This document shows, one piece after another, positions 4,435-31,448 of a DNA stretch of 33,661 nucleotides (position 1 is its first letter; the number at the start of each line of letters is the position of its first letter). The position numbers were made by a program, and so were the translations under genes. The stretch is from assembly GCA_021809995.1 (NCBI GenBank), contig JAJZJT010000004.1, positions 1-33,661 of the forward strand, in the 5' to 3' direction. The DNA is from Actinomycetes bacterium. GTDB lineage: Bacteria; Actinomycetota; Acidimicrobiia; Acidimicrobiales; RAAP-2. Below the pieces are notes generated by a model, which saw nothing but the letters and a program-made list of their open reading frames with translations, ran no database searches and was not told the DNA's origin.

Positions 4435-5313
4435 TCAGGCGGGGAGCGAGCCCGCTACCACCGGGGCGTGGGTCGTGCGCACGACACCGCCGGCCCGCTC
4501 GGCGGTCACCGCGAACGCCCGGACCGGCGAGCTCGTGGCGAGGCTGAAGGCGACCACCGTCGGATGGGGCCCGAGGAGACCCAGCGAGATGAGCTGGCCG
4601 TCCACCGCTCCCCACAGCTGGTAGGTCTGCGAACCGGGCAGGGTCGGCAGTCCCCGAGCGATCAGGAACGCCGTCCCGTCGCGCTCGAGCACGACGGTGG
4701 CGGCGGCACCGGCGTCGGGCGACGAAGCCTGGGCCGTCAGACGGACCCGGGTCGTTGCCGGGTCCTCGAGGGCAGCCTGCGCCACGCCCGCCAGCCGGGT
4801 GCTCCCGGCCGACGCCTGCAACGCGGCGACCTGGCGGTCGAGGTGGTGGACCTGGACGCCGAGGAAGAGGGCGGCCACCGCCGCGGCGGCAGCCACCGCC
4901 CCGGCCGCCCACGCGACCGGGCGGGCGAGCTGACGGCGGCCGACCGGCAAGCCAGCCGTGCCCGGCATCCGACCACCACCGCGCCGGTCGCCGAGGGTCG
5001 ACGGCACGGTCGGCACGGTCGGCACGGTCGGCACGGTCGGCACGGTCGGCACGGTCGGCACGGGCACGGGACGTTCCAGGCGCTCGGCGATCCGGTCCCA
5101 CAGCTCGGCGGGGGCGTCCCCGCCCGCGTTGGCGAGGAGCCCGGCTACCTCGTGATGGCGGGCGACCTCTGCCGCGCACCGCCGGCACGTGGCGAGGTGC
5201 GCCTCGACGGCAGCGGCCTCCTCTGGTTCGACGGCGTCGAGGGCGTAGGCGCCGAGCAGTGCCTCGACGGCGTCGTGGCCGGCGGACGCCGGTCCCCCGT
5301 GCTCCGGCTTCAT
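4435..5313 (-). CDS. RskA-type membrane anti-sigma factor with zinc-binding ASD
   Basis: A 292-residue single-pass protein that should hold the adjacent ECF sigma factor inactive at the membrane. The N-terminal cytoplasmic domain has the zinc anti-sigma motif HxxxCxxC (H39, C43, C46 in EAHLATCRRC). A low-complexity linker of six Pro-Thr-Val repeats spans about residues 86-103. One transmembrane helix follows at about 132-153, and the extracytoplasmic part resembles the RskA domain (LPGSQTYQLWGAVDGQLISLG). Start ATG 5313 overlaps the sigma-factor stop as ATGA, which implies translational coupling and fixed stoichiometry. The PTV repeat is encoded by a perfect 9-bp tandem repeat, so linker length probably varies between strains. 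In known systems, regulated proteolysis of RskA frees the sigma factor; the signal here is unknown. Confidence 0.93.
   Translation of the reverse strand: MKPEHGGPASAGHDAVEALLGAYALDAVEPEEAAAVEAHLATCRRCAAEVARHHEVAGLLANAGGDAPAELWDRIAERLERPVPVPTVPTVPTVPTVPTVPTVPSTLGDRRGGGRMPGTAGLPVGRRQLARPVAWAAGAVAAAAAVAALFLGVQVHHLDRQVAALQASAGSTRLAGVAQAALEDPATTRVRLTAQASSPDAGAAATVVLERDGTAFLIARGLPTLPGSQTYQLWGAVDGQLISLGLLGPHPTVVAFSLATSSPVRAFAVTAERAGGVVRTTHAPVVAGSLPA
5003..5056. repeat. 9-bp tandem repeat (GGCACGGTC x6) in the anti-sigma gene
   Basis: Six perfect copies of GGCACGGTC followed by degenerate partial copies. In the minus-strand gene they encode Pro-Thr-Val units in the linker between the zinc domain and the membrane helix. 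Unit length keeps the frame, so copy-number change would alter only linker length. Confidence 0.95.
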
Positions 5314-17102: not shown

Positions 17103-17124
17103 GGGAGGTCGCATTCCGCTCCGG

Positions 17125-17175
17125 CGGGGACGGCGGGGACGGCGGGGACGGCGGGACGGCGGGACGGCGGGACGG
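17125..17175. repeat. Tandem repeat (CGGGGACGG x3, then CGGGACGG x3)
   Basis: Three 9-bp units are followed by three 8-bp units lacking one G. It lies between the hbd promoter and the SDR pseudogene, in no supported gene. Confidence 0.9.
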
Positions 17176-19472: not shown

Positions 19473-20873
19473 TCACGGGCGGCGCACTCGGGTCCCCTCG
19501 GGCCCGTCCTCGACCACCCAGCCGAGCCGGACGAGCTCGGTGCGCAGGGCGTCGGCGTCGGCGAAGCGGCGCTCCGCGCGTGCGGCGTCACGACGGGCCA
19601 CGAGGTCGAGCACCTCGGGGTCCTCCACGGCCGACCGGACGCCGCGCAGTGGCAGGCCCAGCACGGCGGCGAGGTGCGCGACGGTGCGCGCCGTGCGGGC
19701 AGCGTCCGTGGCGCGGCCGGCGTCGGCGGCGGCGTTCGCCTCCCGCACCAGCTCGAAGACCCCCGACAGGGCCCCAGGGGTGTCGAGGTCGTCGTCCATC
19801 CGCTCGACGAAGCGGGCCACGGCCTCCCGGTCGAGGTCCTCGTCATCCGCCTCGCCCACCACCGCCACCGGGTCCCCCACCGCCAGCGGGTCGGCGAGGT
19901 GGAAGCGCCGGGCGAGCTCGTCGAGCCGGGCGAGGCCGGCCTCGGCCTGGCCCACCGTCTCCGGCGTCACCTCGATCGGCGATCGGTAGTGGGCTCGGAG
20001 AACGAGCAGGCGGTAGGCACGCGGGTCGCCGCGAGCGAGCAGGTCGTCGAGGGACGTGAAGTTTCCGAGCGACTTCGACATCTTCTCGCCGGCGACGGTC
20101 ACCCAGCCGTTGTGCACCCAGTGGTGGGCGAAGTCGCGGCCGAGGGCGACGGCCTGGGCCCGCTCGTTCTCGTGGTGGGGAAAGATCAGGTCGATCGCCC
20201 CGCCGTGGAGGTCGAAGCCCTCCCCCAGCAGATCGAGGGACATCACCACGCACTCGGTGTGCCAGCCCGGCCGTCCCGGGCCCCACGGCGAGGGCCACGT
20301 CGGCTCGCCCGGCTTGGCCTTCTTCCACAGCACGAAGTCGAGGGGCGAGCGCTTGGCCTCGACCGCCTCGACCCTTGCTCCCGCCCGCAACGTGTCGAGC
20401 GGCTGGCGGGCGAGCAGTCCGTAGCCGGGGACCGCCTCGGTCGACAGGTAGACGCCGTCGGGGATCTCGTAGGCGACGCCCCGCTGGACCAGCTCCCCGA
20501 CGACCTCGACCATGCGGGCGACGTACGCGGTGGCGTGGGGGACGTGGTCGGGCCGGAGCACGCCGAGGGCGTCCATGGCAGCCCACCACGTCTCCTCGTA
20601 GCGGCGGGCCAGCTCCCCGGGCTCGACGCCCTCTTGGCGGGCGCGCTCGATCACCTTGTCGTCGACGTCGGTGATGTTCGAGACGTAGGTGACCTCGAGC
20701 CCCGAGGCGACGAGGTACCGACGGAGCACGTCGAAGACGAGGGCGAAGCGGCCGTGGCCGAGGTGGGGCGCGTCGTAGACGGTGGGGCCGCACACGTAGA
20801 GCGACGCCGCACCCGGCCTCCGCAGGGCGAGCGGGCGCACCTTGGCCGTCGCCGTGTCGTAGAGCCGCAGCAC
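19473..20873 (-). CDS. cysS: Cysteine--tRNA ligase
   Basis: A 466-residue class I aminoacyl-tRNA synthetase. The HIGH motif is HLGH (37-40) and the KMSKS motif is at 264-268. The zinc-site Cys is C28 in LYVCGPTVYD, with HTECVVMS and the FPHHENE segment completing the site. The C-terminal DALR/anticodon-binding part is present (EDRRFADADALRTELV region), so length and domains are complete. Start is GTG 20873, beginning the fold at LRLYDTATAK. A TACCGT box ends 7 nt before it, implying a leaderless mRNA. The gene is divergent from valS with 18 nt between start codons, and the two -10 boxes overlap. Confidence 0.97.
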   Translation of the reverse strand: MLRLYDTATAKVRPLALRRPGAASLYVCGPTVYDAPHLGHGRFALVFDVLRRYLVASGLEVTYVSNITDVDDKVIERARQEGVEPGELARRYEETWWAAMDALGVLRPDHVPHATAYVARMVEVVGELVQRGVAYEIPDGVYLSTEAVPGYGLLARQPLDTLRAGARVEAVEAKRSPLDFVLWKKAKPGEPTWPSPWGPGRPGWHTECVVMSLDLLGEGFDLHGGAIDLIFPHHENERAQAVALGRDFAHHWVHNGWVTVAGEKMSKSLGNFTSLDDLLARGDPRAYRLLVLRAHYRSPIEVTPETVGQAEAGLARLDELARRFHLADPLAVGDPVAVVGEADDEDLDREAVARFVERMDDDLDTPGALSGVFELVREANAAADAGRATDAARTARTVAHLAAVLGLPLRGVRSAVEDPEVLDLVARRDAARAERRFADADALRTELVRLGWVVEDGPEGTRVRRP

Positions 20874-20879
20874 GCAAGG

Positions 20880-20886
20880 TACGGTA
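20880..20886. promoter_or_regulatory. Superimposed opposed -10 boxes of valS (+) and cysS (-)
   Basis: Reading plus, TACGGT (20880-20885) ends 6 nt before valS ATG 20892. Reading minus, TACCGT (20886-20881) ends 7 nt before cysS GTG 20873. The boxes share five base pairs, so two polymerases could not open both promoters at once. Confidence 0.65.
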
Positions 20887-20891
20887 ACCCG

Positions 20892-23573
20892 ATGTTGCCT
20901 GCTGACGCGACCAGCCACTCCACGCCGCCGCCGGCACGCACGGGCCCCACCGGGGTCCCCGAGCGGCCCGGCCTGGAGGGGCTCGAGCCGCGCTGGGCAG
21001 CCGCGTGGGACGCCGAGGGCACCTACGCCTTCGACCGCACCGCGGAGCGGGCGGCCGTCTTCTCGATCGACACCCCGCCGCCGACCGTCTCGGGCTCGCT
21101 CCACGTGGGCCACGTGTTCTCCTACACGCACACCGACGCCGTGGCCCGCTACCAGCGGATGCGAGGCAAGGCGGTGTTCTACCCCATGGGCTGGGACGAC
21201 AACGGACTGCCCACCGAGCGCCGGGTGCAGAACCACTTCGGTGTCCGTTGCGACCCGACGCTCCCCTTCGACCCCTCGTTCTCGGCCCCGGAGGCGCCTG
21301 CCGATCCGCCGGTGGCCGTCTCGCGGCCGAACTTCGTGGAGCTGTGCCTCCGGCTGACCGAGGAGGACGAGCGCGCGTTCGAGCACCTGTGGCGGATGCT
21401 CGGGCTGTCGGTCGACTGGTCCCACACCTACGCCACCATCGGGGAGCGGGCCCGACGCGCCTCCCAACGGAGCTTCCTCAGGCTCCTCGCCGCCGGTCAC
21501 GTCGAGCAGCGGGTAGCCCCCACCCTGTGGGACGTCGACTTCCGTACCGCCGTGTCCCAGGCCGAGCTCGAGGACCGCGAGCGGCCCGGCGCCTACCACC
21601 GCGTCCGCTTCCCGCTGGCGGCCGTCCTCCCGGCGGGGGCGGTCGCCGAGGAAGACGGGGTCGACATCGAGACAACCCGGCCCGAGCTCCTGCCCGCCTG
21701 CGTCGCCCTCGTCGCCCACCCCGACGACGACCGCTACCGGCCGCTGTTCGGCACCGAGGTCACCACCCCGCTCTTCGGGGTGCGCGTCCCGGTCCTGGCC
21801 CATCCGCTCGCCGACCCCGAGAAGGGCTCGGGCATCGCCATGGTGTGCACGTTCGGCGACACGACCGACGTCCAGTGGTGGCGCGACCTCGACCTCGCCA
21901 CCCGGACGATCGTCGGGCGCGACGGGCGGCTCCAACCCGTCGCGTGGGGGGGACCCGGCTGGGAGTCCGTCGACGCCGCTGCCGCCCAGGCCACCTACGA
22001 CGAGCTGGCGGGACGGACCGTCTCCCAGGCCCGGACCCGGATCGTGGAGCAGCTGACCGCCTCCGGGGCGCTCGTCGCCGAGCCGTCCCCCATCACCCAC
22101 CCGGTGAAGTTCTACGAGCGCGGCGAACGCCCCCTCGAGATCGTGTCGTCGCGCCAGTGGTTCATCCGCACGCTCGCCCTCCGAGAACGCCTGCTCGAAC
22201 GGGGCGAGGAGCTCGTGTGGCACCCCGCCTACATGGCGCACCGCTACCGGGCCTGGGTCGAGGGCCTCTCGAGCGACTGGAACGTGAGCCGCCAGCGCTT
22301 CTTCGGCGTGCCCGTGCCCGTCTGGTACCCGGTCGACGCCGAGGGGACGGTCCGCTACGACCAGCCCATCGTGCCCGGCGAAGCGGCGCTGCCCGTCGAC
22401 CCCTCCACGGACGTCCCCGACGGCTACGCCGAGCACCAGCGCGGCGCCCCGGGCGGCTTCGTCGGGGACCCCGACGTCCTCGACACCTGGGCGACCTCCT
22501 CGCTCACGCCCCAGATCGCCGGCGGCTGGGAGGACGACCCCGACCTGTTCGGCCGGGTGTTCCCGATGGACCTGCGGCCCCAGGGGCACGACATCATCCG
22601 CACCTGGCTCTTCTCGACGGTCGCACGCGCCGAGCTCGAGCACGGCACCCTGCCGTGGCGCAACGCAGCCATCTCGGGGTGGGTGCTCGACCCCGACCGC
22701 AAGAAGATGTCCAAGTCGAAGGGCAACGTCGTCACGCCACTGCCGCTCATCGAGCGGCACGGTGCCGACGCGGTGCGCTACTGGGCGGCTTCCGGCCGAC
22801 CGGGAACCGACACGGCGGTCGACGAGGGCCAGATGAAGGTGGGCCGGCGCCTCGCCATCAAGGTGCTCAACGCCTCCCGGTTCGTCCTCGGGCGCCTGGA
22901 GGACACCGACAACGGCTCCGGGGCGGCCGGAGACGCGGACGACGTGACGGGGACGGCCCTCGCCGCCGTCACCGAGCCGCTCGACCTCGCCATGCTGGCC
23001 CGCCTGCGCCGCGTCGTCGAGGAGGCGACCGCCGCCTTCGACGCCTACGACTACGCGCGCGCCCTCGAGCGGACCGAGGAGTTCTTCTGGGCCTTCTGCG
23101 ACGACTACCTCGAGCTCGTCAAAGGGCGCGCCTACGACCGCGGCACGGGCTCGGGGCCCGCGTCCGCCCGCGCTGCTCTGACGGTGGCGCTGTCGGTGCA
23201 GCTCCGGCTGTTCGCCCCCTTCCTCCCCTTCGCCGCCGAGGAGGTGTGGTCGTGGTGGCGGACGGGATCGGTCCACCGGGCGCCCTGGCCCGAAGCCGGA
23301 GCCCTCCCCGACGCCGGCGACCCCGAGCTGCTCGCCGTCGCCGGCGAGGTCCTGGGCGCCGTTCGCCGCGCCAAGACCGCTGCCAAGCGGTCGATGCGCG
23401 CCGAGGTGGCGACCCTGACCGTCTCGGGAACGGCGGACCAGCTGGCACAGCTCGCGCTCGTCGCGTCCGACTTGTGCGAGGCGGGGCGGGTCGCGCACCT
23501 CGGTACCGTCGAGCAGCCCGGCCCCTCCGCGGACGGACTGGCCGTCGACGTCGAGCTCGCGCCCGAGACGTGA
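20892..23573 (+). CDS. valS: Valine--tRNA ligase
   Basis: An 893-residue class I synthetase charging tRNA-Val. HIGH is HVGH (71-74, in SGSLHVGHVF) and KMSKS is at 605-609; the connective editing domain lies between them. The segments GWDDNGLPTERRVQN and KFYERGERPLEIVSSRQWF are typical of ValRS. GWDDNGLPTE corresponds to the archaeal/Rickettsia-like ValRS type as I recall it, and the C-terminus ends soon after the anticodon domain without an obvious long coiled-coil arm seen in many bacterial ValRS. Start ATG 20892 follows a TACGGT box by 6 nt (leaderless). The in-frame extension upstream is antisense to cysS and not real. Confidence 0.96.
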   Translation: MLPADATSHSTPPPARTGPTGVPERPGLEGLEPRWAAAWDAEGTYAFDRTAERAAVFSIDTPPPTVSGSLHVGHVFSYTHTDAVARYQRMRGKAVFYPMGWDDNGLPTERRVQNHFGVRCDPTLPFDPSFSAPEAPADPPVAVSRPNFVELCLRLTEEDERAFEHLWRMLGLSVDWSHTYATIGERARRASQRSFLRLLAAGHVEQRVAPTLWDVDFRTAVSQAELEDRERPGAYHRVRFPLAAVLPAGAVAEEDGVDIETTRPELLPACVALVAHPDDDRYRPLFGTEVTTPLFGVRVPVLAHPLADPEKGSGIAMVCTFGDTTDVQWWRDLDLATRTIVGRDGRLQPVAWGGPGWESVDAAAAQATYDELAGRTVSQARTRIVEQLTASGALVAEPSPITHPVKFYERGERPLEIVSSRQWFIRTLALRERLLERGEELVWHPAYMAHRYRAWVEGLSSDWNVSRQRFFGVPVPVWYPVDAEGTVRYDQPIVPGEAALPVDPSTDVPDGYAEHQRGAPGGFVGDPDVLDTWATSSLTPQIAGGWEDDPDLFGRVFPMDLRPQGHDIIRTWLFSTVARAELEHGTLPWRNAAISGWVLDPDRKKMSKSKGNVVTPLPLIERHGADAVRYWAASGRPGTDTAVDEGQMKVGRRLAIKVLNASRFVLGRLEDTDNGSGAAGDADDVTGTALAAVTEPLDLAMLARLRRVVEEATAAFDAYDYARALERTEEFFWAFCDDYLELVKGRAYDRGTGSGPASARAALTVALSVQLRLFAPFLPFAAEEVWSWWRTGSVHRAPWPEAGALPDAGDPELLAVAGEVLGAVRRAKTAAKRSMRAEVATLTVSGTADQLAQLALVASDLCEAGRVAHLGTVEQPGPSADGLAVDVELAPET

Positions 23574-24365: not shown

Positions 24366-25252
24366 CGGTCGCCCCCGGCCACCCCGACGCCGTCGGGGAC
24401 GGCACCGAGGTAGGCGGCCTGCACTGCGGGGTCCTCGCGCACCTCGGCCGGAGCGCCCGAGGCGATCACGTGGCCGAAGTCGAGGACGTGGATCGGGTCG
24501 CACACCCGCATGACCAGCTCCATGTCGTGCTCGACGAGCAGCACGGCGACGCCCGAGGACGCCAGCCGGACCAGCAGGTCCCCGAGGGCCGCGGACTCGG
24601 CACGGTCGAGGCCCGATCCCGGCTCGTCGAGGAGGAGGAGCCGCGGGTCGATGGCGAGGGCGCGGGCCAGCTCGGCCATGCGGGCGAGCCCGGTGGGCAG
24701 CGTGCTGGCCTGCACGCCGGCGACCGAGGTGAGCCCGACCTCGGCGAGGATCCGGGCCGCTCGCGCCGCACGGCGGCGATCGGCCTCGTCGAGCGCGCCG
24801 GGACCTTGCCGGCGCCGTCGGTGACGCCGGTGCCACCACACCGCCGTCGACTCGAGCCCGACGAGGACGTTCTCCTCGACGGTCAGGCTCCCGAAGAGCT
24901 CGAGGCGCTGGAAGGTGCGAGCCAGGCCGAGGCGCGCCCGCGCCGGAGGGGCCAACGCGGTGACGTCGCGACCGAAGAGGTGGACGGTGCCGTGGTCGGG
25001 GTGGTGCAGGCCGCTCACCACGTTGAACAGCGTGGTCTTGCCGGCACCGTTCGGGCCGATGAGCCCGGTCACGTGCCCCGGGGCGGCCTCGAGGGAGACG
25101 TCGTCGAGGGCGAGCACGCCCCCGAAGCGAACTGACACTCCCGAGACGACCAGCGCAGCCGGTCCGTCGGCCACGCCGGGCACGCCGGGCACGCCGGGCA
25201 CGCCGGGCAGTCCTCCCGCAGTGGAGCTGGACGTGTCGTCAGCCGGCGGCAC
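24362..25252 (-). CDS. livG: Branched-chain amino acid-type ABC transporter ATPase LivG
   Basis: A 296-residue ABC ATPase partnering LivF. Walker A is GPNGAGKTT (K72) and Walker B is LLLLDEPGSGLD; the DFGHVIASG tail is typical of LivG. The usual LSYGxQR signature appears as LPTGLARMAELARAL, retaining the glycine but not the leading LS. An N-terminal extension of about 30 residues holds four Pro-Gly-Val units (16-27) encoded by a 9-bp repeat; LivG proteins normally begin near VSGVSVRFGG. Start GTG 25252 overlaps the end of livHM by 14 nt. A second start nearer the fold is not evident. Confidence 0.93.
   Translation of the reverse strand: MPPADDTSSSTAGGLPGVPGVPGVPGVADGPAALVVSGVSVRFGGVLALDDVSLEAAPGHVTGLIGPNGAGKTTLFNVVSGLHHPDHGTVHLFGRDVTALAPPARARLGLARTFQRLELFGSLTVEENVLVGLESTAVWWHRRHRRRRQGPGALDEADRRRAARAARILAEVGLTSVAGVQASTLPTGLARMAELARALAIDPRLLLLDEPGSGLDRAESAALGDLLVRLASSGVAVLLVEHDMELVMRVCDPIHVLDFGHVIASGAPAEVREDPAVQAAYLGAVPDGVGVAGGDR
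25172..25207. repeat. 9-bp tandem repeat (CACGCCGGG x4) in the livG N-terminal extension
   Basis: Four perfect units encode Pro-Gly-Val on the minus strand. Frame is preserved by any change in copy number. Confidence 0.95.
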
Positions 25253-27197
25253 GTGCCTCGCTCCCCAAGGCGAAGGCGCCTTCCGCGGCCCGCGAGTCGG
25301 CTCCGAGCGCCTCGCCCGCCGGGCCGGAGCGCCCCGTCGAGCGCGAGGCGAGCGGCGCGAAGCGCTGGAGCGGCTCGGCACCGAGGATGCCGGCAGCCGC
25401 CCGGCCCACCAGGATGACGCCCGCCCCGGCGAACAGCCCGAGCCCGTTGTCCCACACGTTCGCCAGCACGACGTAGGTGATCGAGGCCAGCAGGGCCCCG
25501 CCGACCGACCGCACGCTCCACGTGGTCACGAAGAGGAAGAAGATGACCCCGGCGAAGACCGAGAAGTCCGACGTCCCGACCACCCCTTCGACCGTGCCGT
25601 AGAGGGCGCCTGCCAGGCCGGCCATCGCCGCGCCCACGGCGAAGACGACCACCCGCGTGGCCGGCACGTTCAGCCCTACGGTGGCGAAGGCGGCGGGCGA
25701 GTCGTTGAGCGCAACCAGCCGCCGCCCGACGAGGGAGCGTCGCAGGGCGAGCACCAACCAGGCGCAGCCCAAGAAGCAGCCCGCGACGAGGAGGAGCTCG
25801 GCCCGGTCGCCGCCGAAGGAGAGGCCGGGCAGGACGACGCGGCCGACCGTGAGGCCTCCGCTGCCGAACACGTGGACATCGGCGAAGAACCCGGTGGCCA
25901 CGGCGTCGGCGAAGGCGAACGTGGCGAGCGCCAGGTAGAGGTCGCGCAGGCGCACGGTGGGCAGGGCCACGAGCGCGCCGAGCACGCCGCACACGCCTGC
26001 TGCGGCGACGAGCCCGAGCAACGAGCCGCCGCCGGCCACCTTGCCCATCACGAACGCCCCGATGCCCATGAAGGCGAACTGGCACAGGGACACCTGGCCG
26101 GCGTAGCCGGTCACCAGCACGAGCGAGAGCCCCACGATGCCGAAGGCCATCACCTGCCCGGCCAGGTCGAGGACCGTGGTGCCGTTCGACTGGTCGCCGG
26201 CGAGGGCGACGGCGCAGAGGACGACCACGACGGCGAAGGCGATGCCGGAGAGGGCGGCCTGGCGCGCCCCGACGAGCCGTTGGGCCCGCACCGTGGTGAG
26301 CCGGCCGACCGCACGGAGCCGCGCGGCGGGCACCGTGACCAGGGCAACGAAGAAGAAGATCATCGGCAGGACGAGCGGGACGTCCGTCTGGAGGTTCTGG
26401 GCCAGGTGGGGAACGGCGTACGAGTTGACGTAGCTCTCGGCGAGGCCGATGCCCACGGCCGCCGCGAAGGTGACGGGGATGTTGCGCAGCCTCCCGACCA
26501 CGGCGGCCGCGTAGCCGTTCACGACGAGCAGCGTCAGAGCGGCGATGTTGACACCGGTGCTCTGGGTCCCGGCGATCAGCACCCCGGCCAGGGCGGCGAG
26601 CACGAAGCCGAGCACCCAGCCAAGCTGGCTCACCCGGTTGGGTGATGCCCCGGCCATGGCCAAGAGGTCGGGGTCGTCGACCACGGCGCGGAGGGCCAGA
26701 CCGGTCCTCGTGGAGAAGAACAGCAGGCGGAGGGCCACTGCCACCACGGCGGCGAGGCCCACGGTGATCACGTACTGGTACTCGATGTTGACGCCGACCA
26801 GCCGGAAGGTGCCGGCCACGAGGGGGTTGACGACCCGGGTGACCGTCGGGCTCCACACGAGCGTCGCCACGCCGGTCAAGATGACGAGCAGACCGAGGGT
26901 CACGAGCACCGGGCGCTCGGCGGAGGCCCCGTGGAGGCGTCGCATGAGGACCCGCTCGACGAGGGCGCCGAAGAGGGGCGCGACCACGAGCAGGACGACC
27001 ACGAGAGCCAGCGGGACGGGGACGTGGTCGTGGACGACCAGCTCCCAGTAGAGGAACGCGGCGGTCATCCCGACGGCACCGTGGGCGAAGTTGAACACGC
27101 CCGAGGCGGCGTACGTGACGACCAGGCCCGTGGCGGCGATGGCGAACCCGGCGCCGAGCATGACGCCGAACACGGTGTACTGCAGGAAGTCGCTCAC
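25239..27197 (-). CDS. livHM: Fused LivH-LivM permease of a branched-chain amino acid-type ABC transporter
   Basis: A 652-residue membrane protein equal to LivH plus LivM, normally two polypeptides. The LivH half begins YTVFGVMLGAGFAIAATGLVVTYAASGVFNFAHGA (family FAHG motif). The LivM half begins after about residue 310, with GQVMAFGIVGLSLVLVTGYAGQVSLCQFAFMGIGAF (family GxxSLxxxAFMGIGAY-like stretch). The polypeptide supplies both permease subunits of the pore for LivK, with LivG and LivF as motors. The final 45 residues are hydrophilic and Ala/Arg-rich. GTG 27197 is the last of four regularly spaced GTG starts, and three short ORFs run into it. The fusion fixes 1:1 stoichiometry. Confidence 0.94.
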   Translation of the reverse strand: MSDFLQYTVFGVMLGAGFAIAATGLVVTYAASGVFNFAHGAVGMTAAFLYWELVVHDHVPVPLALVVVLLVVAPLFGALVERVLMRRLHGASAERPVLVTLGLLVILTGVATLVWSPTVTRVVNPLVAGTFRLVGVNIEYQYVITVGLAAVVAVALRLLFFSTRTGLALRAVVDDPDLLAMAGASPNRVSQLGWVLGFVLAALAGVLIAGTQSTGVNIAALTLLVVNGYAAAVVGRLRNIPVTFAAAVGIGLAESYVNSYAVPHLAQNLQTDVPLVLPMIFFFVALVTVPAARLRAVGRLTTVRAQRLVGARQAALSGIAFAVVVVLCAVALAGDQSNGTTVLDLAGQVMAFGIVGLSLVLVTGYAGQVSLCQFAFMGIGAFVMGKVAGGGSLLGLVAAAGVCGVLGALVALPTVRLRDLYLALATFAFADAVATGFFADVHVFGSGGLTVGRVVLPGLSFGGDRAELLLVAGCFLGCAWLVLALRRSLVGRRLVALNDSPAAFATVGLNVPATRVVVFAVGAAMAGLAGALYGTVEGVVGTSDFSVFAGVIFFLFVTTWSVRSVGGALLASITYVVLANVWDNGLGLFAGAGVILVGRAAAGILGAEPLQRFAPLASRSTGRSGPAGEALGADSRAAEGAFALGSEARAAG

Positions 27198-27223
27198 GGC
27201 TCGTCGCCCTCCCCGTCGCTCAC
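27194..27223 (-). CDS. Minicistron 3 of ladder upstream of livHM (9 residues)
   Basis: GTG 27223 opens MSDGEGDEP and its TGA overlaps the livHM GTG at 27197 as GTGA. GGGGAGG inside this unit lies about 10 nt before the livHM start and is its ribosome site. Translation is inferred. Confidence 0.4.
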   Translation of the reverse strand: MSDGEGDEP

Positions 27224-27249
27224 GGCTCGTCGCCCTCCTCGACGCTCAC
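27220..27249 (-). CDS. Minicistron 2 of ladder upstream of livHM (9 residues)
   Basis: GTG 27249 opens MSVEEGDEP; its TGA overlaps GTG 27223 as GTGA. The unit carries its own AGGAGG about 10 nt before the next start. Translation is inferred. Confidence 0.4.
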   Translation of the reverse strand: MSVEEGDEP

Positions 27250-27275
27250 GGCTCGTCGCCCTCCTCGACGCTCAC
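27246..27275 (-). CDS. Minicistron 1 of ladder upstream of livHM (9 residues)
   Basis: GTG 27275 opens MSVEEGDEP, identical to minicistron 2, with TGA overlapping GTG 27249. It begins 28 nt after the livK stop (27303). Translation is inferred. Confidence 0.35.
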   Translation of the reverse strand: MSVEEGDEP

Positions 27276-27302
27276 GGCAACGGCCCCCGACCGGCCCCCG
27301 GG

Positions 27303-28625
27303 CTACGCGCCTGGCAGCCGGTAGTAGGAGTAGTTACAACGGTAGCCATGCGTCGGGCCCGACACCGGCGGGTCCTGGTAGCGCTGGAAGGTGCCGTTGA
27401 CCACCCGTCCGAGCAGGTAGCAGTTGCTCAGCGTCTTTGCTGCCGGGTCGCCGGGCGCCACGAGGTGCCCGCCGTCGAACGAGGTGATCTTCTGGAGGGC
27501 GGCGAGCAGCGAGCCCCGGCTCGGGTCGGAGCCGGCGTGGCGCAGCGCCTCGGTGAACAGCTCGGCCGACAGCCAGCCGTACAGGGTGAAGAGGTCCGGT
27601 TTGAACCCCGGCGAGGCGACCTGCACCCAGTGGAGGAACGTGGCGTCCGCGGGGATGACCGACGCGTCCTCGCCGAGGTAGAGCGACGTGTTCTGGTCGA
27701 GGTAGGCGCCGTCGATGGCCTTGGTCGAGCCCGTCTGCTTGACCACATCGGGGATGAGCGCCGACGAGTACGTCGAGGCGCCGAGGACGAGCGCGGGGTG
27801 GAAGTTCTGGTTCTGCATGGCCTTGATGACCGCCGCCGCGTAGTTGTACGGCATCTGCTCGATGAAGAGCATCTTGACCCCGGCCTGCTTCATGGCGATG
27901 ACGTTCTGGTCGAAGCTCGACTGGGTGATGTCGAAGGTCTGGTCGTAGGTGATGTGGTACCCGAGGTGCTCCATCGCCGCCTTCTCGCCGGCCCACTGGC
28001 TCTCCGCCGACGGCTGGTTGGCGATGAGGGCGCCCACTGCCTTCACCCCGGTCGGGTAGTGCTGCTTGAAGAACTCGAGGGGGCCGAGCTCCCACCCCGG
28101 AGAGACGGGCACCGCCGAGACGACGTTGGGCAGCGCCGCCGTCTTCGGGTCGATGGCGACCGAGACGTCTGGGACGCCCGGGTTCTGCGCGAGCAGCGCC
28201 CCGCCGTAGCTGTCGTCGAGGGAGAAGCTGCCCACGAGGGCGAAGTCGCTGTTGATCGCCTGCTGGGTGGCCTGCTTGTTGCCCGCCCCCGAGAAGTGGT
28301 CGTCGTAACCGTTCACGACCAGCTTGCGCCCGTCGATGCCGCCGGTCGAGTTGACGTACTTGGCGTACGCCTCGGTCCCGACGAGCGCTCCCTTGAAGAG
28401 CCCGAAGGTGAGGGTGGACACGTTGCCGATCGAGATCGAGGTGGCCGTCACGCCCGTGTGGTCGCTGAAGGCGCTCCTCGGGATGCCCGCCTGCTTCGTC
28501 GTCGTGGTCGCGGACGTGGTGGAGCTGCAGGCGGTGGCGACCAGTGCCGTCGCCACGACGATGGCGCCCGCCACCCGCCGGGTCATGCCCCTACGCCTCG
28601 CCTCCCGCTTCGGTGCAGTGCCCAC
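27303..28625 (-). CDS. livK: Substrate-binding lipoprotein of the Liv-type ABC transporter (LivK-like)
   Basis: A 440-residue periplasmic-binding protein of the leucine/isoleucine/valine-binding fold, anchored by a lipid: lipobox TAC with C33, after a hydrophobic AGAIVVATALVAT stretch. Typical segments are GVTATSISIGNVSTLTFGLFKGALVGTEAYAKYVNSTGGIDGRKLVV and SSFDQNVIAMKQAGVKMLFIEQ. Start GTG 28625 has AAGGGGG about 6 nt upstream and gives a proper positively charged signal region. ATG 28721, which overlaps the esterase stop as TGATG, and ATG 28586 are alternatives. It is the first transporter gene. Its cargo could be branched-chain amino acids or other carboxylates; the adjacent esterase offers no firm clue. 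Confidence 0.9.
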   Translation of the reverse strand: MGTAPKREARRRGMTRRVAGAIVVATALVATACSSTTSATTTTKQAGIPRSAFSDHTGVTATSISIGNVSTLTFGLFKGALVGTEAYAKYVNSTGGIDGRKLVVNGYDDHFSGAGNKQATQQAINSDFALVGSFSLDDSYGGALLAQNPGVPDVSVAIDPKTAALPNVVSAVPVSPGWELGPLEFFKQHYPTGVKAVGALIANQPSAESQWAGEKAAMEHLGYHITYDQTFDITQSSFDQNVIAMKQAGVKMLFIEQMPYNYAAAVIKAMQNQNFHPALVLGASTYSSALIPDVVKQTGSTKAIDGAYLDQNTSLYLGEDASVIPADATFLHWVQVASPGFKPDLFTLYGWLSAELFTEALRHAGSDPSRGSLLAALQKITSFDGGHLVAPGDPAAKTLSNCYLLGRVVNGTFQRYQDPPVSGPTHGYRCNYSYYRLPGA

Positions 28626-30179: not shown

Positions 30180-31448
30180 TCACGGCGCCGGTGCGACGGT
30201 CATCGAGGACGCCCCGTCGCACACGGTCACCGGAGCGGAGAACGTCCGGGTGGCGGTGTCGTAGCGGACCACGCTGTCGAACCCGTCGACGATCCACGCA
30301 TGGTGGCCCCCCGGGCCGGCGACGATGTCGCTCGGGTGCTGGGTGCCCGAGCCGTGCGCAGAGCCCGGCTGCACCGGGATCGGCACCGGGGACGGCGGTG
30401 ACGCGAACGACGTGACGGGCAGCGGGTCGACGGCGTTGTTGGCAGCGTCGACCACGGCGAGGGCGCTGCCCCCGCCCACCACGGCCAGCGCGGCGGGCTG
30501 GGTGATGCCGAAGGCGGCGAAGGACGCCACCGGCCCGGGCGTGTCGGTCGCCGCGGCGATGGAGAGCACGCGTCCCTGGTAGTCGGTACCTCCCTGTCCG
30601 ACCACGTAGATCGTCGAGCCGTCCGGGCTGACCACGATGCCGTGCGGTGAGAACGCCGACGAGACGGTGAGGCCGGTCGGCACGATGGGACCGACCGCTC
30701 CCCGGGACGGGTCGACGACCGCCACGGCCCCGGCCACGAGGACGTAGAGCGTCGTGCCCTGCGGATTGAGGGCCATCCCGGCCACCGCGCGACCGCGCCC
30801 GAGGACGATGGGCACGCCCACCCGGCGGTCGGCCACGTCGACGGGGACCACCTCGTCGCCGCTCGCCGCCAGCACGGTGCGCCCACCGGGCAGGACGACG
30901 ACGGCCCGGGCGGCCCCGGTGCCGGGCAGGACGATGGGCCGCTCGGCCCGCTGGGAGACGAGGTCCACCGGCACGAGGACGTTGTGCCCGTCGGCCGAGC
31001 CCGTCGCGCCGCCGGGCACCGACGTGGTCACCACGTACGCGGTGCGCCCGTTCGAGGACGTCGCCACGGCGAAGTCCCCCGGGGCCGGCGTGCCGCCGAT
31101 GGGGAGCGGGATGGCCGGCTCCGCGACCCCGGTGGCCAGCTCCACCGGGGTGAGGGCGTCGGGGCAGGCCACGTAGCCGATCGTGCCCGCGGGTGCGAGC
31201 GACGGGAGGTGGTCGGCCGGGGGCGTCGGCGAGGCGAACAGTGCGCACCCAGCCGTGGTGGTGGCCACGGCGACGAGCAAGGCCAATCTGGCAGGGCTGC
31301 CCCGACGGCGAGGGCTGCCCCGACGGCGAGGGCTGCCCCGACGGCGAGGGCGCCACGGACGCGACGGGTCGCCCGGGCCTCGGGTGTCGAGGCGGGCGTC
31401 GGCGAGGTGCAGGACGCCGGTCGTGCGACCGTCGGCGCGATCGTCCAT
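30180..31448 (-). CDS. Beta-propeller-type lipoprotein (YncE/NHL-like repeats)
   Basis: A 422-residue exported lipoprotein. The lipobox TAGC (C68) follows a hydrophobic ALLVAVATT stretch, but the N-region is very long, about 50 residues, with three RRRGSP repeats encoded by an 18-bp tandem repeat. The mature part repeats blades of the form GRTVLAASGDEVVPVDVADRRVG, PQGTTLYVLVAGAVAVVDPSRG and PDGSTIYVVGQGG, as in seven-bladed YVTN/NHL propellers. Function is unknown. Start ATG 31448 is the only standard codon ahead of the signal sequence; a TAACCT box lies 11 nt upstream on the minus strand. It is 85 nt downstream of uvrD. Confidence 0.85.
   Translation of the reverse strand: MDDRADGRTTGVLHLADARLDTRGPGDPSRPWRPRRRGSPRRRGSPRRRGSPARLALLVAVATTTAGCALFASPTPPADHLPSLAPAGTIGYVACPDALTPVELATGVAEPAIPLPIGGTPAPGDFAVATSSNGRTAYVVTTSVPGGATGSADGHNVLVPVDLVSQRAERPIVLPGTGAARAVVVLPGGRTVLAASGDEVVPVDVADRRVGVPIVLGRGRAVAGMALNPQGTTLYVLVAGAVAVVDPSRGAVGPIVPTGLTVSSAFSPHGIVVSPDGSTIYVVGQGGTDYQGRVLSIAAATDTPGPVASFAAFGITQPAALAVVGGGSALAVVDAANNAVDPLPVTSFASPPSPVPIPVQPGSAHGSGTQHPSDIVAGPGGHHAWIVDGFDSVVRYDTATRTFSAPVTVCDGASSMTVAPAP
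31294..31347. repeat. 18-bp tandem repeat (three units) in lipoprotein signal region
   Basis: Three perfect 18-bp units (GGGCTGCCCCGACGGCGA) encode Arg-Arg-Arg-Gly-Ser-Pro on the minus strand just before the hydrophobic signal segment. Confidence 0.95.

Follow-up and report, generated by a model that had tools for sequence, protein, structure and literature searches.

Is a ladder of repeated start codons between two bacterial genes a device that hands ribosomes across the gap, or the by-product of a duplication? The spacer between livK and livHM in an Acidimicrobiales genome (G000), where a 26-bp unit carrying a GTG start is repeated in tandem, raises this question. Copying a GTGA start at a period of 3n-1, provided that no stop lies within the unit, makes each copy end in a TGA that overlaps the next GTG. 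The ladder is therefore automatic from one coupled unit and a 3n-1 duplication, and the repeat by itself is no proof of function; its geometry is one coincidence, not three, and its rungs are one event repeated. The key question is whether coupling predated duplication of the 26-bp unit, and the conserved coupling across orthologs is more interesting than the repeat itself. After comparing the locus with orthologous, paralogous, and other spacers, we consider it probable that the minicistrons form a ribosome relay that leads from livK into livHM and is maintained by selection, in which a single ancestral unit was tandemly tripled in the studied genome.

A 26-bp repeat forms coupled minicistrons between livK and livHM

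Within the window (the whole 33,661-nt stretch of DNA that was analyzed), livK (27303..28586, minus strand) encodes a branched-chain amino acid binding protein (PF13458, 1.6e-27). Its stop is the TAG at 27305-27303, and its probable start according to our own gene caller is ATG 28586; a longer frame runs from 28721. livHM (25239..27197, minus strand) encodes a fused permease of 652 amino acids with two PF02653 stretches (3.4e-36) and an N terminus that is conserved among orthologs. Direct overlaps are frequent later in the operon: livG and livF, so named from their positions two and three genes past livK, share 4 nt in 9 of 11 contigs. The start of livG is unclear among relatives, with gaps of -14 to +52 nt assigned by our caller, and a 9-bp repeat (VPG codons) is located at the livHM-livG junction (25168-25209).

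The livK-livHM spacer is 105 nt long (27198..27302, minus strand) and holds the array, which on that strand consists of two identical units, GTGAGCGTCGAGGAGGGCGACGAGCC, followed by GTGAGCGACGGGGAGGGCGACGAGCC, with two differences, and then by the livHM start, GTGAGCGAC. A first-pass annotation had proposed four evenly spaced GTGs and three 9-codon frames coupled by GTGA overlaps, and both were confirmed by reading of the sequence and by TRF (period 26, 3.4 copies, 96% matches; the score of 162 was the highest of 62 rows for the window). The GTG starts are at 27275, 27249, 27223, and 27197, the last being that of livHM, and each of the three upstream GTGs opens a frame of nine codons with its TGA inside the next GTGA. 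Minicistrons 1 (27246..27275) and 2 (27220..27249), which overlap each other at a GTGA, both read VSVEEGDEP, and minicistron 3 (27194..27223; VSDGEGDEP) shares a GTGA with the livHM start; all three are on the minus strand. The first mini-ORF starts 27 nt past the livK stop.

An AGGAGG-like ribosome site had also been ascribed to the repeat, and two details of this had to be amended. AGGAGG is present in minicistron 1 (27260..27265, minus strand), 10 nt ahead of GTG 27249, and in minicistron 2 (27234..27239, minus strand), 10 nt ahead of GTG 27223, each with a predicted pairing energy of -11.8 kcal/mol. The copy adjacent to livHM, in minicistron 3 (27208..27213, minus strand) and 10 nt ahead of GTG 27197, was converted to GGGAGG by one of the two differences in copy 3 (predicted -11.0 kcal/mol), and GTG 27275 is preceded by a G-run only, without AGGAGG (predicted -8.6 kcal/mol compared with -11.8 kcal/mol for the next two GTGs). 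These and all later Shine-Dalgarno (SD) energies were computed with the canonical anti-SD sequence, no 16S having been found in the assembly.

BLAST detected no second array in the studied genome, the assembly of which is 93% complete; four further partial matches, 21 to 68 bp in length, were all read. The array was found once, and the 26-bp unit is not interspersed at many loci of this genome. When 172 genomes of the family were searched with the array by BLAST, only partial matches were obtained, and one of these (L132) was read. It belongs to another tandem repeat, of ~23 bp in about three copies, in the sister genome (G001:C41, about 261423-261480), which has the word GGCGACGAGCC in common with the array unit and no GTG ladder.

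Several other features of the window were recorded. A perfect 9-bp repeat (5002-5063, 6.9 copies) lies within a called gene (4435-5313, minus strand) and would give a three-residue protein repeat. A perfect 18-bp repeat (31293-31351, 3.3 copies) lies inside the N terminus of the gene at 30180 or just ahead of it and is coding or not depending on the start chosen. A tandem repeat of 8-9 bases (CGGCGGGGA type, about 6 copies; 17122-17175) has no called gene and is flanked by two genes named by eye as acyl-CoA metabolism-like. Finally, a 1299-aa open frame (19674-23573, plus strand) has a Pfam tRNA synthetase class I match over residues 441-1244, and residues 1-440 resemble an extension of the frame that goes unused, in GC-rich DNA.

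Coupled frames are retained at the livHM start in three genera

In the ortholog search, 37 of the 172 family genomes gave a match within the set limit. The 46 match places gave 30 loci, and the 21 with at least 65% identity make up the core set; the other 9 were counted apart. Sixteen of the 46 match places had no locus, 7 of them being covered via other loci and 9 falling outside the sample. L110 and L117-L128 (outgroup stretches and one order-level genome stretch) were left out of all counts. In G063 (L054), the homologous livK stop was chosen by hand in place of the automatically assigned one, and the count of chains thereby moved from 14 to 15.

The species itself was represented by G000 alone, and the sister G001 was the sole other genome of the genus returned by the search. 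Its LivHM is 82% identical to that of the studied genome, and its spacer is without the repeat; one 13-codon frame, running from GTG to TGA and unlike the G000 unit, is coupled to livH by a GTGA. Across the core set, a coupled mini-ORF was present between livK and livH in 21/21 orthologs; by dinucleotide shuffling, 11.2 would be expected. Chains of at least two were present in 15/21 (1.8 expected), or in 10/21 when only frames of at least three codons were counted (1.4 expected); G083, for example, has three steps, and G071 and G070 have two. In 20 of the 21, the first ATG or GTG met when moving upstream from livH is in the coupled frame (distances, 5 to 38). Retention is faithful to the frame: after a shift of 1 or 2 nt, 0 to 6 of the 21 were coupled and no chain was seen, and the number coupled was 0 or 1 if one-codon frames were ignored.

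In these 21 orthologs, the coupling linkage is kept more than the sequence of the spacer or, as judged by eye, of the peptide. Median spacer identity was 0.58 compared with 0.57 for shuffled pairs. By eye, the mini-peptides vary in sequence and length between genera and mostly also within them, and show no abundance of Leu, Ile, or Val. The excess of chains persisted in subsets of mutually dissimilar spacers; in the most dissimilar (smallest) subsets, the excess of single coupled frames was marginal, with p from 0.03 to 0.09 in several. Tandem self-match rose above the shuffled range in G000 only (1.0, period 26), with values of 0.58 to 0.82 for the other 20 spacers and a shuffled 95% point of 0.85; therefore, the other 14 chains did not come from recognizable tandem copying. 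The signal weakens beyond these three genera, with coupled frames in 5/9 loci (3.1 expected) and chains in 2/9 (0.45 expected). A second outside set, which overlaps the first and comprises the 10 of 23 rows that qualified for the shuffle test, gave coupled frames in 5/10 (3.9 expected) and chains in 2/10 (0.42 expected).

Chains are specific to the livK-livHM junction among sampled short spacers

The control sample consisted of 13 contigs from the same three genera (939,202 bases) with 760 genes called, starts included, by our own simple caller. No chain of two was found in 38 other spacers of 30-140 nt that precede an A/GTGA start (Fisher test for 15/21 compared with 0/38, 1.4e-9, a value that ignores kinship), and within this sample chains in short spacers are specific to the livK-livHM junction. 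Single coupled frames were present in 21/38 of these spacers compared with 14.8 expected, a mild excess that makes a lone coupled frame weak evidence. Longer control spacers (140-400 nt) held chains in 2/22 (2.6 expected). The short controls rule out chains as a general property of these genomes, and do so less than fully for single coupled frames.

Chains were also considered as a general property of liv operons. Nine junctions between livHM paralogs and their upstream frames, taken whatever the identity of those frames, were located in the same genera; the three with an A/GTGA start and a spacer are chain-free and have 0, 1, and 0 coupled frames, which rejects this idea. Of the other junctions, a direct gap of -4 nt is seen at three; two have GTGG starts, which are unable to couple in this way, and for one the start was not found. 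A -4 nt gap between paralogous livHM and the upstream frame was noted at G004:C83, G023:C48 (83557), and G023:C70 (L141-L143), all in one genus, in contrast to the spaced livK-livHM ortholog.

The tests were chosen after the data had been seen, and the species are related. A neutral simulation was run along a tree built from one protein fragment (LivH), with a two-step chain at the root; rate and indels were varied over ten settings, each run 150 times. At each of the 10 settings, 0/150 runs gave both 21/21 coupled tips and at least 15/21 chains; on average, 8.5 to 12.0 of the 21 tips were coupled and 0.5 to 2.4 had chains of two. On the tree, the number of steps (frames of at least three codons) changes at least four times, as counted by starred branches. 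From these comparisons, coupling looks kept and step number looks free.

The chain begins a short distance past the livK stop

Spacers in the core set are 51 to 136 nt long, and the chain (frames of at least three codons) begins 12 to 31 nt past the livK stop in 20 of the 21; the exception is G035, with a 50-nt gap. In shuffles, a first gap of 12-31 nt occurred in a mean of 6.7 and a maximum of 14 of the 21, the 31-nt limit having been fixed after the values were seen. Coupling is reported to be best at -4 to +3 nt, and one recent study found little or none beyond 30 nt (PMC12548453, available part). The bare livK-livH distance is outside the range of that study, and the chain leaves one short jump followed by -4 nt steps only. 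Other work cited in the same 2025 review describes coupling across longer gaps (PMC12548453); therefore, a relay may not be needed.

The predicted SD of livH, in the 22 nt before its start, has a median energy of -8.6 kcal/mol compared with -6.25 for called genes and -3.2 for random windows. Because livH has its own predicted SD, ribosomes could load there independently, and both routes may add. The predicted SD of rung 1 is modest (median -4.5 compared with -3.2 for random windows). Weaker sites at rung 1 would fit hand-over better than fresh loading, but GTGs 2 and 3 of the studied genome have strong predicted sites (-11.8).

Relation to known coupled small ORFs

The first-pass annotation had stated that no equivalent of the array was described, and this was wrong: in mycobacteria, both RTGA-coupled small ORFs (PMC4633059) and MIRUs (PMC12548453, PMC9392950) have been reported. 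The comparisons made here draw on the available portions of the cited papers. As with the RTGA-coupled small ORFs, each small frame here closes with a TGA that overlaps an RTG start following it, and in mycobacteria too the linkage is sometimes kept when the peptide is not (Shell et al. 2015, PMC4633059). The RTGA set of that study starts leaderless transcripts, whereas the frames described here lie behind livK and several are chained. A MIRU is an apparently mobile repeat, present in many mycobacteria, with an ORF that is coupled at -4 nt to the gene behind it (PMC12548453), and the same -4 nt coupling of a repeat ORF to the next gene is found in the array. The senX3-regX3 spacer contains two or three 77-bp MIRU copies (PMC9392950). 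Both 77 and 26 are of the form 3n-1, and tandem MIRU copies would probably couple to each other. MIRUs are interspersed, whereas the array occurs once in its genome and orthologous spacers form chains without tandem repeats. Because the unit was not found interspersed, we class the array with RTGA-coupled small ORFs and not with MIRUs.

In bicistronic design (BCD) leaders, the SD of the second cistron lies inside the first, and the leaders are synthetic and single-step, unlike the G000 chain. An SD within the preceding minicistron and a stop-start overlap are both present in the G000 array, and the likeness extends to a short first cistron that delivers ribosomes to the second (PMC12548453). 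In E. coli, ORF27 is a short ORF whose stop overlaps the start of iraD and whose loss lowers iraD expression; unlike the minicistrons, it encodes 27 amino acids in a 5' leader, is a CsrA target, and involves an SD-sequestering structure, and no chain is described in the available part of that report (PMC5574718). The 8-aa ORF mgtQ, between mgtC and mgtB of Salmonella, is likewise intergenic, has an AGGAGG, precedes a transporter gene, and is conserved though its length varies. It depends on alternative stem-loops and acidic residues, and a stop-start overlap is unmentioned in the available text (PMC8092293). Among the papers listed by a literature search in which subscription journals were thinly covered, none was recognizable from its title or abstract opening as describing a conserved multi-step minicistron chain.

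Discussion

In the relay that we favor, a ribosome finishing livK, or loading at an SD in the spacer, would translate one or more tiny frames, and each NTGA overlap (a 4-nt stop-start) would deliver it to the next start and lastly to livHM. The mini-ORFs would then be translated, ribosomes would be handed on along the chain, and livHM output would depend on the relay, with the peptides themselves being irrelevant. In the studied genome, a single ancestral coupled unit would have been copied in tandem to three, and the triplication may add something to one unit. The hand-down of ribosomes had been part of the first-pass annotation, and this part is favored by the comparison of universal coupling and frequent chains in the orthologs with the chain-free control spacers. 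The further suggestion in that annotation, that copy number tunes livHM translation relative to livK, may hold as well. More tentatively, and as a reading that we hold to be doubtful, the relay could be independent of sequence and conserved in frame in all three genera, which are related actinobacteria, with a first jump of ~30 nt or less and a step number that sets the LivK:LivHM ratio; step number, altered here by tandem copying, would in that joint reading determine how many ribosomes pass.

A neutral origin of the repeat is quite possible, if somewhat short of probable: slippage may have duplicated the livH initiation region, leaving the extra rungs as a geometric by-product. A ladder arises whenever a GTGA start is copied at a 3n-1 period, copy 3 of the array opens with the first nine bases of livHM, the sister genome has one unlike unit, tandem repetition exceeds the shuffled range in G000 alone among the 21, and the window contains many other short repeats. 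Slippage, which is compatible with a selected single unit, accounts for the triplication but not for a coupled frame in every ortholog or for the 14 repeat-free chains. Those could be explained by chance and shared ancestry if G-rich spacers often hold an open frame that ends at an NTGA start and is inherited by relatives, and about half of the spacers do have a coupled frame after shuffling, with the controls mildly in excess. We judge this explanation highly unlikely, given the low averages of the neutral tree simulation, the failure of the frame-shifted versions, and the repeated changes of chain depth on the tree.

Two further explanations would retain translation of the minicistrons without a relay. 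The frames might mainly keep the spacer covered by ribosomes or unfolded, which would protect the mRNA or prevent Rho-dependent termination with no hand-over. The chain covers a mean of 59% of the spacer compared with 31% in shuffles, and a two-codon minigene (axe-txe) is reported to raise expression of the next gene, possibly via mRNA stability (PMC8708949, available part). Coverage or unfolding needs no exact 4-nt overlap with the livH start, yet this overlap is what is kept, and the G000 spacer, the one that was folded, is predicted to be no more stable than its shuffles (z +1.07); we regard this explanation as rather unlikely. Barely plausible is a regulatory leader, in which the mini-peptides act as an attenuator or as a translation-aborting peptide like MgtQ. 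The G000 peptides are acidic (VSVEEGDEP), as would suit the parallel with the 8-aa MgtQ, in which acidic residues matter (PMC8092293), but the variation of the peptides between and mostly within genera, their composition by eye, and the lack of a fold above shuffles in the G000 spacer argue against it.

The coupled small ORFs that we found described are single ones. If the chain is conserved, bacteria would be able to carry ribosomes over a spacer whose length prevents efficient direct reinitiation, by means of stepping stones that stay in frame as the remaining sequence drifts. The 21 natural variants, with 1 to 3 steps in spacers of 51 to 136 nt, would be suited to testing post-termination ribosome travel and the cost of each overlap. 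The finding is also a warning that frames under selection can lie in spacers that annotation leaves empty.
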